This document shows, piece after piece, positions 1-48,251 of a stretch of 64,000 bases of DNA. The DNA comes from Massilia solisilvae (lineage in GTDB: Bacteria; Pseudomonadota; Gammaproteobacteria; Burkholderiales; Burkholderiaceae_D). The notes under the pieces were generated by a model. That model was not told the origin of the DNA. It saw only the letters and a list, made by a program, of their open reading frames with translations, and made no database searches. The translations under genes and the position numbers were made by a program. The stretch lies in NCBI RefSeq assembly GCF_024753215.1, contig NZ_JANUGV010000003.1, positions 124,001-188,000 of the forward strand, written 5' to 3'. The stretch's first letter is position 1; each line of letters starts with the position of its first letter.

Positions 1-37
1 CGGAACTGCCGCATTCGTTCTCTTTTGTGCTGCACAT

Positions 38-114
38 CGTGTCTCTTCGTGTCTCTTTGCGTCTCCATTGAACTCATCAATTGAAATAAGGTCGAAAGAG
101 ATAGAACGAGACAC
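38..114. repeat. Short direct and inverted repeats upstream of first gene
   Basis: CGTGTCTCTT occurs twice in tandem at 38-57, followed by a degenerate third copy (GCGTCTCC). The inverted form GAGACAC lies at 108-114, twenty bases before the first start codon. The arrangement could be a repressor operator or the arms of a leader hairpin. No clear sigma-70 hexamers accompany it and no regulator is identified, so the role is inference only. Confidence 0.3.
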
Positions 115-134
115 AACGCGACAGGAGAACGAGA

Positions 135-746
135 ATGAATGCGCCACTCGCCCCGCTGGCCCCCTCCCAGGCCATGCGCCGCCTTGCCGATTTTCTCGCC
201 GACTCGGGCGATACGCTGACGGCTCCCGAGGCCGCGGCCCAAGCCATCGATCAATGGATTGCCGCCAAGCGCGGGCAGTTGCTCGAGCGCGTGGTGGCGC
301 CGGACCGGGGCTACCGCTGGAAGACCTTGTTCCTGCCGGAGGGCACGCGGCTGCGCATGCATTGCGGCGGCCGCAGCTACGATGCGACGGTCGAAGGAAG
401 CGACCTCATCTACGAAGGGCGGGCGGTGTCGCCACGGCAGATGACCTTGTCGGTCGCGGGCAAGGGTTACAACGCATGGCGCGCGTTGTGGGTACTGCTT
501 CCCGGGGCCATGCGCTGGCGGCCGGCGTCGTTGCTGCGGCGCGAGGCCGAACATCAGCAGGCGCCAACCATGTCCCCGTTCGAAGCGATGAACGCGGCGG
601 CGCAATGCATGTCCCAGACCCTGCAGACGGCGCTGGCGCTGGTGGACCATGCAACGGCACAGGCGCTGCCCGCATGCGAGCGCCGCACGCCCCAACCGCG
701 CCGCCGTGCCGGCGAGCTGCTGGAAGACGTGTGCATGCAGGACTAG
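135..746 (+). CDS. Hypothetical protein with RAMA/DUF2924-like C-terminal half
   Basis: A 203-residue soluble protein that I do not recognise by name. Residues 1-60 are helical and resemble a small N-terminal domain. Residues about 60-125 have the pattern of a RAMA or DUF2924-type module: a glycine-rich turn, a strand ending in a Y-D pair, an E-G-R turn, and a final segment with N-A-W-R-A-L-W. Such modules are known beside DNA methylases and DNA-binding proteins. The C-terminal 70 residues are low complexity and basic near the end (RRTPQPRRRAGE). The start is chosen on a good ribosome site, AGGAGAACGAG, seven bases upstream. It converges on mnmA with a 24-base gap. No signal peptide or membrane segment is visible. 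Confidence 0.6.
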   Translation: MNAPLAPLAPSQAMRRLADFLADSGDTLTAPEAAAQAIDQWIAAKRGQLLERVVAPDRGYRWKTLFLPEGTRLRMHCGGRSYDATVEGSDLIYEGRAVSPRQMTLSVAGKGYNAWRALWVLLPGAMRWRPASLLRREAEHQQAPTMSPFEAMNAAAQCMSQTLQTALALVDHATAQALPACERRTPQPRRRAGELLEDVCMQD

Positions 747-770
747 GGCCGGCCCGGAACCACGGACGGG

Positions 771-1874
771 TCAGGTGTTGCTTGCCCCGTCGATGATGCC
801 CCCGCCCAGGCACACGTCGCCGTCGTACAGCACGGCCGACTGGCCCGGCGTGACCGCCCACTGCGGCTCGTCGAAATCGAGCACGAAGCGCTCCATGCCT
901 TCGGAGGTGACGGTGCAGGCCACGTCGGCCTGGCGGTAGCGGGTCTTGGCCGACAGTTTGCGCTGGCCGGGCGGCTCGCCCAGCACCCAGCTGGCCTGGC
1001 CGGCTTCCAGCCGCGACGACAGCAGCCACGGGTGGTCGTGCCCCTGCACGATGTACAGCGTGTTGTTGGCAATGTCCTTGCGCGCCACGAACCACGGCTC
1101 GCTGGTGCCGTCGGCGTTCTTGTGCGACTTCAGGCCGCCGATGCCGATGCCCTTGCGCTGGCCCAGCGTGTAGAACGACAGGCCCACGTGTTCGCCCACC
1201 ACGGTGCCGTCGTCGAGCCGGATCGGGCCCGGCTTGTGCGACAGGTAGCGCGACAGGAACTCGCGGAACGGGCGCTCGCCGATGAAGCAGATGCCGGTCG
1301 AGTCCTTCTTGGCCGCATTGGGCAGGCCGATTTTTTCGGCGATCTTGCGCACCTCGGTCTTGGGCGTTTCGCCCAGCGGGAACAGCGACTTGGACAGCTG
1401 CGCCTGGTTCAGGCGGTGCAGGAAGTAGCTCTGGTCCTTGGTCGAATCGAGTGCCTTGAGCAGCTCGAATTTGCCATCGTTCTCGCGCACGCGGGCGTAG
1501 TGGCCGGTCGCGATCAGGTCGGCGCCCAGCTTCATCGCGTGGTCGAGGAAGGCCTTGAACTTGATCTCGGCGTTGCACAGCACGTCCGGGTTGGGCGTGC
1601 GCCCGGCCTGGTACTCGCGCAGGAATTCCGCGAACACGCGGTCCTTGTACTCGGCGGCGAAGTTGACCGCCTCGATATCGACCCCGACCACGTCGGCCAC
1701 GCTGGCCGCGTCGATCCAGTCCTGGCGCGACGAGCAGTACTCGGAATCGTCGTCGTCTTCCCAGTTCTTCATGAACAGGCCCACGACCTCGTAGCCCTGC
1801 TCCTTCAGCATCCAGGCCGCAACCGAGGAGTCGACTCCGCCCGACATCCCGATCACGACTTTTTTCTTGCTCAT
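771..1874 (-). CDS. mnmA: tRNA-specific 2-thiouridylase MnmA
   Basis: MnmA adenylates and then thiolates uridine 34 of the tRNAs for Lys, Glu and Gln, taking sulfur from the IscS/Tus relay. The 367 residues match the family length. The PP-loop SGGVDSS is at residues 11-17. The two catalytic cysteines are visible: Cys100 in the NPDVLCN context and Cys196 in [10 protein letters not shown]. The GHYAR substrate loop is near residue 124. Its start codon overlaps the stop of the upstream Nudix gene by four bases, so the two are probably co-translated. The same nudJ-mnmA adjacency exists in Escherichia coli, which supports both calls. Confidence 0.97.
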
Positions 1875-2374
1875 GTAACGTCCGTCTTGAGGGTGAGCGC
1901 ACGGTCGTACACCGACTCGTGCGTGTGCAGCAACGCCAGCGGCGTGCGCTTGCCGGCCAGGTAATCATCCACGCACTGCAGCACAATCGGGCTGCGGTGG
2001 CGTTCGCGGCAGGCGGCCATTTCTTCGCGTGTCATCCAGAGGGTGCGAATGATACCGTGATCGAGCGGCCGGTCAAGCTCGCGCCCGGGGCGGCCGCAGA
2101 AGGTGAAACGCAGGTAGGTGACGTCGGTGCCGCGCGACCTGGACATGTAGCGCGACATGTACATGCCCACCAGCGCTTCGGGCACGAATTCGTGCGCGGT
2201 CTCTTCCATCGCCTCGCGCACCACCGCCTCTTGCAGCGACTCGTGCGGGTCGAGGTGGCCGGCCGGCTGGTTCAGCCGGATCCCTTCGCTGGTTTCCTCT
2301 TCGATCAGCAGAAAGCGGCCATCGCGTTCGATGATGGCGGCAACGGTGACTGACGGTTTCCAGATATGGGGCAT
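1871..2374 (-). CDS. nudJ: Nudix phosphohydrolase NudJ-like
   Basis: A 167-residue Nudix hydrolase. The Nudix box runs from Gly39 to Glu58, with E45, R53-E54 and E57-E58 in the expected spacing (G-x5-E-x7-RE-x2-EE). NudJ proteins hydrolyse thiamine pyrophosphate precursors and nucleoside di/triphosphates in the cytoplasm. The N-terminal [10 protein letters not shown] strand and the position directly upstream of mnmA fit NudJ rather than MutT or RppH. The gene starts the two-gene mnmA operon and is divergent from the transhydrogenase genes across a 250-base regulatory gap. Confidence 0.85.
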
Positions 2375-2560
2375 GCGGGTCCTCGACGATGAGCCGACAT
2401 TTTACATGGTGTGTCCCAGGCCCGCTCATCCATACGTGCGCGCCCCCGGCCCGCACCGTGCAGGTTAGCTTGATTTGATACAAAAAACCGTGGGATATAA
2501 CTGCAGTTGAATCATGTTTGGCCCGAAAATGGCAGATTCAACCATTACCAACCTTGATAC

Positions 2561-2591
2561 TTGGATAACAAGAGGTTTTCCGGTATATGAT
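2561..2591 (+). promoter_or_regulatory. Probable sigma-70 promoter of pntAA
   Basis: TTGGAT at 2561-2566 is followed after 17 bases by TATATG at 2584-2589, with TATGAT at 2586-2591 as an alternative -10 one turn over. It sits in the only AT-rich patch of the intergenic gap. The strong ribosome site GGAGGG at 2615-2620 follows, four bases before the ATG at 2625. Confidence 0.5.
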
Positions 2592-2624
2592 GGTGTGCAT
2601 ACATTCAACTGATCGGAGGGATTG

Positions 2625-3740
2625 ATGAGAATTGGTATTCCGGCTGAAACCCGGCCGGGCGAGACCCGCGTCGCCGCGACCCCTGAAACGGTCAAGAAAC
2701 TGGCTGCGCGGCACCAGGTGGTGGTGCAGGCCGGGGCCGGGCTGTCGTCGTCGGTGACCGACGCCGCGTTCGAAGCGGCTGGCGCCACCATCGGCAGTGC
2801 CGCCGACGCGCTCGGCGCCGACCTGGTGCTCAAGGTACGCGCACCCGACGAGCACGAGCGCGGCCAGATGAAGCCGGGCGCGGTGCTGGTGGGCATGCTC
2901 AATCCCTTCGACCAGGACAACCTGGCCGCGCTGGCCGGTGCGCGCCTGACCGCGTTTGCGCTGGAGGCCGCGCCGCGCATCACCCGCGCGCAATCGCTGG
3001 ACGTGCTCTCGTCGCAGGCCAACATCGCCGGCTACAAGGCCGTGATGATGGCCGCCAACACCTACCAGCGCTTCATGCCGATGCTGATGACCGCGGCCGG
3101 CACCGTCAAGGCCGCCCGCGTGCTGATCATGGGCGTGGGCGTGGCCGGCCTGCAGGCGATCGCCACCGCCAAGCGGCTGGGCGCGGTGATCGAGGCGTCC
3201 GACGTGCGCCCGCCGGTCAAGGAGCAGGTCGAATCGCTGGGCGCCAAATTCATCGACGTGCCCTACGTGACCGACGAAGAGCGCGAGATTGCCATGGGCA
3301 CCGGCGGCTACGCGCGCCCGATGCCGGCCGACTGGATGCGCCGCCAGGCCGAGCTGGTGGGCGAACGCGCCAAGCTGGCCGACATCATCATCACGACCGC
3401 GCTGATCCCTGGGCGCCGCGCGCCGGTCCTGATCACCGAAGCGATGGTCAAGGCCATGAAGCCGGGTTCGGTGATCGTGGACATGGCGGTCGAGCAGGGC
3501 GGCAACTGCGAGCTGTCCGAACTGGGCAAGACGGTGGTCAAGCATGGCGTCTCCATCATCGGCGAGCCGAACCTGGCCACGCTGGTGGCGGCCGACGCCT
3601 CGCAGCTATACGCGCGCAACGTGCTCGACTTCCTCAAGCTCATCATCGACAAGGAAGACAAGCTCGTCATCGACCGCGAGGACGAGATCGTGCGCGCCAC
3701 GCTGATGTGCATGGATGGCGAGCTGCTGCGCAAACAATAA
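2625..3740 (+). CDS. pntAA: NAD(P) transhydrogenase subunit alpha, NAD(H)-binding part (PntAA)
   Basis: This is domain I of proton-translocating transhydrogenase, which binds NAD(H) and passes hydride to the NADP(H) domain to make NADPH at the expense of the proton gradient. The 371 residues begin with the family signature RIGIPAETRPGETRVA. A Rossmann glycine motif (MGVGVAGLQA) lies near residue 168. It is a peripheral cytoplasmic subunit, and the membrane domain is encoded separately, as in Rhodospirillum rubrum. ATG at 2625 is preferred over the TTG one codon earlier because of the GGAGGG site. A REP-like palindrome separates it from pntAB, an unusual interruption for such a tightly coupled complex. 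Confidence 0.95.
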   Translation: MRIGIPAETRPGETRVAATPETVKKLAARHQVVVQAGAGLSSSVTDAAFEAAGATIGSAADALGADLVLKVRAPDEHERGQMKPGAVLVGMLNPFDQDNLAALAGARLTAFALEAAPRITRAQSLDVLSSQANIAGYKAVMMAANTYQRFMPMLMTAAGTVKAARVLIMGVGVAGLQAIATAKRLGAVIEASDVRPPVKEQVESLGAKFIDVPYVTDEEREIAMGTGGYARPMPADWMRRQAELVGERAKLADIIITTALIPGRRAPVLITEAMVKAMKPGSVIVDMAVEQGGNCELSELGKTVVKHGVSIIGEPNLATLVAADASQLYARNVLDFLKLIIDKEDKLVIDREDEIVRATLMCMDGELLRKQ

Positions 3741-45251: not shown

Positions 45252-46856
45252 ATGGGCGAGGCGGCCAGCATCCACGAAGCCACGGCGGCGGGCCAGCAGC
45301 GCCCGAGCGCCGAGTTCGTGCGCATGAAGGCGCTGGCCGAAGCGGGCAACGCCAACGCCCAGCACAGCCTGGGCTTCATGTACGTCAACGGCCAGGGCGT
45401 GCCGAAGAATTACGAGATGGCCGTCGCGTGGTACCGCATGGCGGCCGCCGGCGGGCTGGCGCAGGCCCAGTACAACCTTGGCGTGATGTTCCAGAAGGGC
45501 CAGGGCGTGGCGCAGGACTACCAGCAGGCCTTCTACTGGTACCAGCGCGCGGCCGAGCAGGGCTATGCCGCCGCCCAGTACAACCTGGGCTGGCTGTACG
45601 CCAAGGGCCTGGGCGTGGCGGCCGACGTGCAGCAGGCGCTGCACTGGTTTGGACTGGCTGCCGCGCAGGGCGACCCCAACGCCCAGCACAACCTGGGCCT
45701 GATGTACGAAGCCGGCCGTGGCGTGCCGCAGGACCAGGACCAGGCCATGCAGTGGTACCGGCGCGCGGCCGAGCAGGGCCACGCGCGCGCCCAGTTCAGC
45801 CTGGGCCTGCGCTACGACGGCGGGCAGGGCGCCGCGCGCGATCCGCAGCAGGCCCTGGGCTGGTTCCGCAAGGCCGCCGAGCAGGGCTATGCGCCGGCCC
45901 AGTTCAACCTGGCGCTACGCTACGACAAGGGCATCGACCTGGAGCAGGACTCCACACGCGCCATTCGCTGGTACCTGCGCGCGGCCGAGCAGGGACACGC
46001 CAGCTCGCAGTTCAACTTGGCGCTGATCTACGACAGCGGGCATGGCGTGGCGCGCGACGAGGAACAGGCGCTGGCCTGGTTCCGCAGGGCCGCCGAGCAG
46101 GGCCACGCCGGTGCGCAGGACAATCTCGGCTTGCGCTACGAGCTGGGCAAGGGTGTGGCGCAGGACCACGCGCAGGCCGCGCACTGGTACCGCCAGGCCG
46201 CCGAGCAGGGCCTGCCCGGCGCGCAGTACCACCTGGCGGTACTGTATGACAGCGGCACCGGCGTGCCGGCCGACCCGGCGCAGGCGATCGCCTTGTATGC
46301 GAAGGCGGCCGAGCAGGGCTACCTGCGCGCCCAGTTCGACCTGGGCCTGCGCTTCGAGAACGGCATCGGCGTGGAGCGAGACCTGGCACGCGCGCTGCAC
46401 TGGTACCGCCGCGCCGCCGCGCAGGAATACGCGCCGGCGCAGTACATGGTCGGCGCACTGCTCGACCGTGACGAGGATGGCGGCCACGACCCGCTCGAAG
46501 CATGCGACTGGTACCGCAAGGCCGCCGAGCAGGGCCACGCGCTGGCCCAGTTCGCGCTGGCGCTGCGCCACGACTGTGGCGGAGCCGGCCTGGACCAGGA
46601 CTACGAGCAGGCCCACGGCTGGTACCTGGCCGCCGCGCGCCAGGGCCATGGGCGCGCCCAGTTCAACCTCGGCGTCATGTACGCGAGCGGTCAGGGCGTG
46701 GCGCGCGACCTGGTCGCGGCCTGGTGCTGGCTGCAGCGCGCGGCAATGTCGAATGCCCCCGGGGCGGCGCGCTACGCCGAGCGCATCGGCCTGCGCATGG
46801 AGCCCGACCAGCTCGAACGCGCCAAGCGCCTGCTGGCCGGCGCGCACACCGCCTAG
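45252..46856 (+). CDS. Sel1-repeat protein (13 repeats)
   Basis: A 534-residue protein built almost entirely of Sel1-like helical pairs of about 36 residues. I count thirteen, each marked by AQ-x-N/S-LG or LA and a WYRRAAEQGH-type helix. Such solenoids are protein-interaction scaffolds. No signal peptide is visible, so it is probably cytoplasmic. It starts two bases after the GGDEF-EAL gene and completes a three-gene operon, so it may assemble or sense partners of that system. The last block (LERAKRLLAGAHTA) caps the solenoid. Confidence 0.9.
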   Translation: MGEAASIHEATAAGQQRPSAEFVRMKALAEAGNANAQHSLGFMYVNGQGVPKNYEMAVAWYRMAAAGGLAQAQYNLGVMFQKGQGVAQDYQQAFYWYQRAAEQGYAAAQYNLGWLYAKGLGVAADVQQALHWFGLAAAQGDPNAQHNLGLMYEAGRGVPQDQDQAMQWYRRAAEQGHARAQFSLGLRYDGGQGAARDPQQALGWFRKAAEQGYAPAQFNLALRYDKGIDLEQDSTRAIRWYLRAAEQGHASSQFNLALIYDSGHGVARDEEQALAWFRRAAEQGHAGAQDNLGLRYELGKGVAQDHAQAAHWYRQAAEQGLPGAQYHLAVLYDSGTGVPADPAQAIALYAKAAEQGYLRAQFDLGLRFENGIGVERDLARALHWYRRAAAQEYAPAQYMVGALLDRDEDGGHDPLEACDWYRKAAEQGHALAQFALALRHDCGGAGLDQDYEQAHGWYLAAARQGHGRAQFNLGVMYASGQGVARDLVAAWCWLQRAAMSNAPGAARYAERIGLRMEPDQLERAKRLLAGAHTA

Positions 46857-46885
46857 CGGACGCCAGCCGCCTCGCCATCGGCTTA

Positions 46886-46905
46886 TACTGTATGCATGTA
46901 CAGTA
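46886..46905. promoter_or_regulatory. LexA (SOS) box overlapping the udgX start codon
   Basis: TACTGTATGCATGTACAGTA matches the Escherichia coli-type LexA consensus (TACTG, ten mostly alternating T/A bases, CAGTA) with perfect inverted ends; ATACTGTA and TACAGTAT extend the symmetry by one base. TATACT at 46884-46889 can serve as the -10 and overlaps the box. Position 46896, the A of the ATG, lies six to seven bases after that -10, so transcription would start at or next to the start codon. Confidence 0.85.
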
Positions 46906-48251
46906 TCGAGCCAACCCGTCCAGGTCCTGTCCCGCCGCCCGCAGCACCACGCAGCTTTGCCGAATGGCGCGAGGCCGCGCGCGAGCTGCTGGCTGCCGGC
47001 GTTGCGCCCGATGCAGTCGATTGGGCCGCGCCGTTCTCGGGTGCGCCAGCTGCCCGGCTCGCGCCGCATAATGCGTCCATTCAACTGAACAAACCCGCCC
47101 CGGCGCCGGTCCTGCCGCGCTGGCTGATGGACCTGCTGCATGCCGCCGCCTGTTGCCGCGCGCCCGACCGCTGGGCGCTGCTGTACCGGCTCGTGTGGCG
47201 CTGGCAGCATGGCGAACAGGCCGCATCCGACCGCGACCCGGACTGGCAAGGCCTGCACGCGATGGTGGCGGCAGTGCGGCGCGAGGAGCACGACATGCAG
47301 GACAAGATCCGATTCCACGAGCGGCCGGCGGATGCGGGGCCGCCGCGTTTCGTCGCCTGGTACGCGCCGGCGCACGACGTGCTGCCGCAGGTGGCCGAGC
47401 ACTTCGTCAGCCGCATGGGGCGCGTGAGCTGGATGATCGCCACGCCGGACGCGAGCGTGCTGTGGGACGGCGCCACGCTGCACAATTGCGGCCCGCTGGT
47501 GGCCGACGCGGCCGAGCTGACCGGCGACGGCATCGCGCCCTGGCTCGCCTACTACCGCAGCGTGTACCCGGCCGGGCCGGGGCAGGGGGCGCAGCGCGTG
47601 ATCCCGTTGCTGGCCGCCGGCACGCGGCGCGGCGCAGGCGGCGACGCGCCAGGCAGCGAACCGGGCCAGCACCCGGCAACGCTCGACGAATGCCGCCGCT
47701 GCGACTTGTGGCAGCACGCGACCCAGCCGGTGGGCGGCGCGGGCAGCAAGCGCGCGCGCATCATGCTGGTGGGCGAGCAGCCGGGCGACCAGGAGGACAT
47801 CGCCGGCGCGCCCTTCGTCGGCCCGGCCGGCAAGCTGCTCGACCGAGTGTGCGAGGCGGCCGGCGTGGACCGGCGCACTGTGTACGTTACCAACGCGGTC
47901 AAGCACTTCAAGTGGGAGCCGCGCGGCAAGCGGCGCATGCACAAGACGCCGGCCCAGCGCGAGATCGAGGCCTGCAGCTACTGGCTGGAAAAGGAGCTCG
48001 CGCAAATCAAACCGCAGGTGATCGTCGCCATGGGCACCACCGCGCTCAAGTCGGTGCTCGGCACCAGCCACGTCACGCTCAAGGACACGCTCGGGCGCGC
48101 GCTGCGCCACGAGGGGCGCTGGGTGGTGACCATCTACCACCCCTCGTACGCGCTGCGGGTGCCGGACGAGGCCGCGCGCAAGCAGGCCTTTGCGACCATG
48201 GTGGAGGGCCTGCGGATGGCGCAGGAGCTCGTGGACAAGCCCGGCGCCTGA
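46896..48251 (+). CDS. udgX: DUF4130-UdgX fusion, uracil-DNA binding/repair protein
   Basis: A 451-residue two-part protein. Residues about 70-235 match DUF4130 (LPRWLMDLLHAAACCRAPDRW, KIRFHERPADAGPPRFVAWYAPAHDVL), a domain linked to a radical-SAM DNA-repair partner. Residues 263-450 are a family 4-like uracil-DNA glycosylase of the UdgX type: GEQPGDQED at 293-301, HPSYALR at 415-421, and the R-loop K345-R-R-M-H349. In UdgX the equivalent histidine (KRRIH) forms a covalent bond to the uracil site. Cys266, Cys269 and Cys360 fit iron-sulfur ligands. No alternative in-frame start exists downstream, and no ribosome site precedes the ATG, which sits inside a LexA box. It should be SOS-induced and translated from a leaderless mRNA. 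Confidence 0.9.
   Translation: MYSIEPTRPGPVPPPAAPRSFAEWREAARELLAAGVAPDAVDWAAPFSGAPAARLAPHNASIQLNKPAPAPVLPRWLMDLLHAAACCRAPDRWALLYRLVWRWQHGEQAASDRDPDWQGLHAMVAAVRREEHDMQDKIRFHERPADAGPPRFVAWYAPAHDVLPQVAEHFVSRMGRVSWMIATPDASVLWDGATLHNCGPLVADAAELTGDGIAPWLAYYRSVYPAGPGQGAQRVIPLLAAGTRRGAGGDAPGSEPGQHPATLDECRRCDLWQHATQPVGGAGSKRARIMLVGEQPGDQEDIAGAPFVGPAGKLLDRVCEAAGVDRRTVYVTNAVKHFKWEPRGKRRMHKTPAQREIEACSYWLEKELAQIKPQVIVAMGTTALKSVLGTSHVTLKDTLGRALRHEGRWVVTIYHPSYALRVPDEAARKQAFATMVEGLRMAQELVDKPGA

Follow-up and report, generated by a model that had tools for sequence, protein, structure and literature searches.

The udgX locus and its control region

The window, which is the whole stretch of 64,000 nucleotides analysed, belongs to a 5.2 Mb genome in 30 contigs (G000) from Massilia, a betaproteobacterial genus that also includes M. 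horti and M. terrae. A Sel1-repeat gene is followed here, after a short spacer, by a gene encoding a fusion of a DUF4130 part and a UdgX part, and the start codon of this udgX gene lies within a predicted LexA operator that also overlaps a predicted -10 element (Table 1). The initial annotation had described a UdgX fusion gene at this place and this proved correct, the gene being intact and both parts of its product matching their NCBIfam families above the cut-offs; a Pfam search of the protein was made alongside. The translation contains motif A (GEQPG) and an R-loop of the form KRRxH, here KRRMH, which would place the product among the UdgX proteins. Both elements are shared with M. smegmatis UdgX, in which the R-loop histidine is the crosslinking residue according to the excerpts of PMC10359453. 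Those excerpts give motif B of UdgX as HPS(S/A)(L/V)(L/V)R, and the protein described here differs from that of M. smegmatis in being fused behind a DUF4130 part and in having HPSYALR as its motif B. The same variant is present in 4 of the 62 rows compared, with HPSYVLR in 49 and HPSYILR in 9, and the tyrosine is common to all 62.

Table 1 Features of the udgX locus, in positions of the window
Feature	Position	Strand	Remarks
Sel1-repeat gene	45252..46856	+	syntenic left neighbour in many relatives
29-bp spacer	46857..46885	+	between the Sel1 stop and the operator
TATACT, predicted -10 element	46884..46889	+	overlaps the left arm of the operator; direct sequence reading
Predicted LexA operator TACTGTATGCATGTACAGTA, 20-mer	46886..46905	.	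E. coli-type box; identical in the sister species G014
Start codon ATG in the operator	46896..46898	+	box positions 11-13
udgX-DUF4130 fusion gene, 451 aa	46896..48251	+	intact
TIGR03915/DUF4130 part, codons 19-223	46950..47564	+	114.2 bits (NCBIfam cut-off 112.25)
UdgX part, TIGR03914, codons 261-441	47676..48218	+	252.7 bits (NCBIfam cut-off 189.95)
KRRMH, UdgX R-loop with the crosslinking histidine	47928..47942	+	sequence and translation; cf. KRRIH in the excerpts of PMC10359453

A search of both strands of the window with the box motif TACTGTATN5TACAGTA, allowing up to 3 mismatches, returned a single place, which is the predicted operator, against a mean of 0.03 matches in 100 shuffled windows. 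The earlier reading of a LexA-type box overlapping TATACT at the start of udgX is thereby borne out. The site has a palindromic CTGTATN4ATACAG-like core as found in E. coli-type operators (CTGT-N8-ACAG), and on base composition only an exact match would be expected 0.0004 times per 5.2 Mb.

The ATG in the operator is the only sensible start for udgX. An earlier in-frame start was rejected because the frame is closed upstream by a TAG at 46854-46856, and a later one was rejected as the main start since the first downstream in-frame ATG, GTG or TTG is codon 78, at position 47127, after the conserved FAEWREAARELL of codons 21-32. The statement that no in-frame start exists downstream is therefore wrong if taken literally, codon 78 being an unlikely main start. 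TATACT is separated from the ATG by six bases, the A of the ATG being the seventh, in keeping with the six to seven bases first reported. If TATACT is taken as the -10 element, the A of the ATG becomes the predicted +1. An AUG 6-8 nt past the -10, with too short a leader to hold a ribosome site, is the arrangement of a leaderless message.

That the ATG has no ribosome site had also been observed, and rightly so (the score of -1.7 kcal/mol counts as none), but this is not diagnostic because recA (-0.9), lexA (-1.7) and imuA (-0.3) of the same genome are likewise without one; the scores of five other genes in the window range from -2.2 to -11.8. The predicted structure of the first 50 nt, counted from the ATG, is unusually weak (-4.4; shuffles averaged -7.89, and 197 of 200 of them folded as well or better), and the AUG in it is unpaired, both of which would fit leaderless initiation. 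A sigma-70 scan of positions 46700-47100 gave no promoter-like site with a -35 by the criteria of the scan, the best -35 by hand count being ACGCCA with an 18-bp spacer and 3 of 6 matches; a complete sigma-70 promoter with a -35 is not strictly defining for leaderless messages. Within the spacer itself the scan matched neither a promoter nor a terminator, and as there is no recognisable terminator in the 29-bp gap between Sel1 and the box, transcription may read through and give messages with a longer 5' end.

LexA boxes elsewhere in the genome

The box at udgX had been assigned at the outset to the Gammaproteobacteria-type SOS systems. This holds for the motif, which is of E. coli type, and not for the host, which is a betaproteobacterium. 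The motif is nevertheless the right one for this host since boxes of the same class stand ahead of lexA (TIGR00498, 230.6 bits), recA, imuA, dinB and dnaE2 in G000, one arm of the lexA box being altered (CTGG), and the LexA consensus of the genus is accordingly not an unrelated one. The whole G000 genome has five places with the exact 16-mer core CTGTATN5TACAG; apart from the one at udgX they adjoin the SOS genes imuA and dinB, hamA and a PA0069-family radical-SAM gene. The view that the box has nothing to do with LexA was rejected on the shuffled controls, these exact-core places and the boxes at the SOS genes of G000. Searching the genome with 2 mismatches in the core was uninformative because the reversed control gave nearly as many matches (125/126 against 97/99).

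Other boxes in G000 were found beside genes of various kinds. In locus L112 (C1:928825-934825) a perfect-core box at 2999-3018 stands some 113 bp ahead of a Hachiman defence pair, consisting in PADLOC of HamA (1965-2885, minus strand, 2.8e-145) and HamB (1-1965, minus strand, 7.1e-233, extending past the fetched stretch), and this pair is possibly under SOS control. The box ahead of the PA0069-family gene is at 2999-3018 of L113 (C1:948345-954345), so that its product could be another radical-SAM protein in the SOS regulon of G000. A LexA-like box at 1999-2018 of L109 (C2:38985-42985) begins 33 bp upstream of the ATG of a gene for a FAN1-like VRR-NUC nuclease, and the LexA-type box TACTGTAATTTTGTACAGTA at 1999-2018 of L106 (C27:192500-196500) precedes a 562-aa ORF with an Eco57I-methylase match, on the other strand. 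Two tandem LexA-like boxes, each 1 mismatch from the core, precede an ORF of the PAP2 phosphatase superfamily at about 1999-2037 of L104 (C12:842769-846769).

A LexA box before the radical-SAM/udgX operon in relatives

The UdgX fusion is present in 61 of the 62 genomes sampled from the genus (G000 included), the remaining genome, G029, giving no more than a weak generic UDG match, and every one of these 61 has the box. In 58 of them it stands before a pair of genes, a radical-SAM gene followed by udgX, and it lies over the udgX ATG in two only, G000 and G014. The radical-SAM family TIGR03916 is correspondingly above its cut-off in 58 of the 62 genomes, those without it being G000, G014, G017 (M. 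horti) and G029; the search of G000 with TIGR03916 returned no match, so there is no partner gene ahead of udgX. The upstream comparison that the initial annotation had proposed as a check thus found the box conserved throughout the UdgX-fusion genomes and its overlap with the ATG confined to G000 and G014, and the arrangement as a distinct or conserved regulatory mode for UdgX is not supported in the genus.

We fetched 64 loci, from 60 congeners, G064 and three genomes of other genera, and found the LexA box in 61 of them: before the radical-SAM gene in 59, over the udgX ATG in G014 and 102 bp before the udgX ATG in G017. The three loci in which no box was found, G069, G076 and G109, are all from other genera. 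Columns were counted over the 59 intact operons, the boxless rows of other genera (L098-L100) and the loss rows L037 and L038 being set aside. The distance from the start of the box to the radical-SAM ATG is nearly constant, at 31 bp in 49 operons, 32-34 bp in 9 and 39 bp in one. The two bases before the box are TA in 57 of the 59, with an exact TATACT in 54, and since the mirror positions to the right have no conservation, TATACT looks like a promoter element rather than part of the LexA palindrome. The radical-SAM stop and the ATG of the udgX frame mostly overlap, as ATGA in 50 of the 59 (four of which also offer TGATG) and as TGATG only in 7, with no overlap in 2.

A second set, the best 80 of 564 confirmed named loci, overlaps the first. 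Among these 80, 79 have a radical-SAM gene together with a box scoring at least 12/16, and the other one is M. horti, which has the box alone. TA before the box was found in 56 of the 64 loci of Massilia/Duganella/Janthinobacterium type among those 79, against none of the 15 of Burkholderia type and others, and this split between lineages again makes TA look like a feature of the promoter and not a LexA contact.

A Sel1 gene was found in the approximately 3 kb of upstream DNA at 36 of the 64 loci, and in G000, G014, G017 and M. terrae (G038) it adjoins the locus on the left. In M. terrae this Sel1 gene is followed by the box TACTGTACGCATATACAGTA, a radical-SAM gene of 410 aa, an ATGA overlap and udgX. 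As the relatives have their box before the radical-SAM/udgX pair, SOS control of udgX appears to be inherited, and the site in the window is, as part of the overall explanation set out below, probably the SOS promoter and operator of a former two-gene operon of TIGR03916 followed by udgX-DUF4130.

Loss of the radical-SAM gene and origin of the start codon

The start of the box and the udgX ATG are approximately 1.25 kb apart in M. terrae and 10 bp apart in G000, and this difference together with the synteny indicates that the radical-SAM gene was lost in place and took the old udgX start with it. Position 13 of the box is A in all 59 intact operons, M. terrae included, and G in G000 and G014. 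It is likewise A in 77 of the 79 second-set operons from the best 80 of 564, with the G of the remaining two creating no start there. A single change from CATATAC, as in M. terrae, to CATGTAC, as in G000, yields an in-frame ATG. From this derived state we infer that the udgX start codon arose inside the operator by an A-to-G change at position 13. An alternative origin in which the old udgX ATG was kept and the right half of the box evolved anew is less parsimonious as more changes are needed.

M. horti has also lost most of the radical-SAM gene, with a different outcome from the operator-born ATG of G000. Its box is followed by ATGGAACTTCCCGACAAGCTC, a near-usual start of a radical-SAM gene, and the frame that opens at box +31 (L118/L038) stops after 24 codons, its TGA overlapping the udgX ATG as ATGA. 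Because the start and the ATGA are present around this remnant, the middle of the gene seems to have been removed and the coupled junction kept, and the 24 codons may couple translation to udgX still.

In the UdgX tree M. horti joins G000 and G014 (99/94), as it does in a tree of the DUF4130 half only (82/83), while a tree of the UDG half only does not distinguish one loss from two. M. terrae with its intact operon is the sister of G000 and G014 in the trees of the EAL neighbour (100/100), dnaE2 (96/96, with a partial M. terrae row of 814 aa) and rpoB (100/100). One single loss, as the UdgX tree alone would have it, was rejected because all three of these markers join the intact M. terrae with G000 and G014, and the simplest account that they suggest is of two independent radical-SAM losses, one in the G000/G014 lineage and one in M. 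horti. Horizontal exchange of udgX between species is possible. G029 is a complete loss of the udgX operon: at this locus (L199, C7:64000-74200) the EAL and Sel1 genes are kept, the operon is absent and a flagellin-like ORF, named by eye, comes next.

Divergence of the DUF4130 part

The rates of change of the two parts of the protein were compared against 56 outgroup rows, with the long branches L088 and L097 and the four focal rows kept apart. Mean identity of the DUF4130 part to these rows is 0.654 in G000, 0.731 in M. horti and 0.814 in M. terrae, and that of the UDG part is 0.749, 0.746 and 0.732 respectively. G000 has changed 18 of 108 near-invariant columns in DUF4130 but a single one of 99 in the UDG part (Fisher p ~5e-5), and its 18/108 also exceeds the 4/99 changed in the DUF4130 part of M. 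terrae (p ~0.003), a row with nine N-terminal columns unaligned in the column comparison. Ten near-invariant columns of the linker, 226-257, are changed as well. In M. horti the corresponding counts of 8/108 and 4/99 do not differ significantly (p 0.38). Faster divergence of DUF4130 with the UdgX half unaffected is thus clear in G000/G014 and only suggestive in M. horti. As it is the DUF4130 half and not the UdgX half that diverged fast after the loss of the partner, the simplest reading suggests that DUF4130 works together with the radical-SAM protein.

Proposed mechanism and alternative explanations

The explanation that we consider probable for the locus as a whole is that an SOS promoter and operator of a former operon has lost its partner gene, has given rise to a start codon and now drives an mRNA predicted to be leaderless. 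The comparison with relatives shows the radical-SAM gene and the original udgX start to have been lost in place in the G000/G014 lineage, and the change at box position 13 would have provided the new in-frame ATG. By analogy with its family, LexA on the box would sit over the -10, the start point and the ATG, and transcription would be blocked until RecA-stimulated cleavage of LexA frees the operator. The predicted consequence is transcription that begins at, or a few bases from, the A of the start codon, and translation of the resulting mRNA without a leader. We give roughly even chances to the stricter form of this account, a strictly LexA-gated leaderless mRNA in which the repressor footprint, the +1 and the initiation codon are the same bases, with the freed DUF4130 part on a new course and UdgX fixed.

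The short spacer, the lack of a terminator match and the lack of a -35 would also suit a transcript of the Sel1 gene that reads through the 29-bp spacer, with ribosomes reinitiating at the ATG and LexA acting as a roadblock, in which case the message would not be leaderless. We hold this to be unlikely, as the box is identical in G014 though 3 of the 29 spacer bases differ, behind the same Sel1 gene the relatives have this box and -10 ahead of a distinct operon, and ribosomes arriving from upstream would meet an out-of-frame ATG at 46892 first. The missing -35 could also be that of a promoter-down relic, with the box and -10 as leftovers, expression weak or lost and the gene decaying as the radical-SAM gene did, and the changed near-invariant columns of DUF4130 and the linker, set against the single one of the UDG half, could be seen in the same light. 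Selection on the protein makes such decay quite improbable: dN/dS between G000 and G014 is 0.10 for the whole gene, 0.12 for codons 2-77 (2 nonsynonymous and 6 synonymous differences), 0.09 for DUF4130 and 0.06 for the UDG part, on few differences each, the gene has no stop codons and the active-site motifs are kept. These low ratios indicate that the protein has been maintained for as long as the arrangement has existed. A palindrome lying over the start codon by chance and unconnected with LexA is extremely improbable given the 0.03 matches expected per window at 3 mismatches and the occurrence of this box ahead of the radical-SAM gene at 59 loci, and the named loci agree, with the box and the radical-SAM gene together in 79 of the best 80 of 564 and the box alone in M. 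horti.

Relation to known systems and significance

The intact Massilia operons consist of a UDG-family gene and a TIGR03916 gene, the latter family being the one to which, we presume, COG4277 corresponds. They look similar to an SOS-controlled two-gene UDG operon, COG1573-COG4277, which the excerpts of PMC8565304 describe in Bacteroidetes and cite for Verrucomicrobia and Alphaproteobacteria too, and in which a UDG-family gene and a partner are likewise under LexA. The locus in the window differs from the operon described there in that the partner is gone, the motif is of E. coli type and the start codon of udgX is in the operator. The excerpts of PMC3765255, on SOS components, link DUF4130 with SplB-like radical-SAM enzymes and UDGs; the same three-way association is found here, but the G000 lineage keeps DUF4130 and UDG without the TIGR03916 gene. 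For a leaderless SOS message the closest likeness is lexA of Mycobacterium tuberculosis, experimentally shown to be leaderless in the excerpts of PMC2897130, so that its translation start is its transcription start; in the present case this is predicted, concerns udgX and has the codon within the operator itself. A search of the open-licence literature found no paper joining UdgX to either LexA or radical SAM. Published work already covers the control of UDG operons by the SOS response, and what appears to be new is the start codon embedded in the operator together with the predicted leaderless mRNA.

The locus is a clear case of how regulation and translation start are put together anew after the first gene of an operon is lost, with the operator supplying the start codon. 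The two apparently separate losses, having led to unlike outcomes in the 24-codon remnant of M. horti and the operator ATG of G000, form a natural experiment. More generally, the widespread presence of the box before radical-SAM/UdgX operons in the sampled Burkholderiales supports a role for UdgX in the response to DNA damage.
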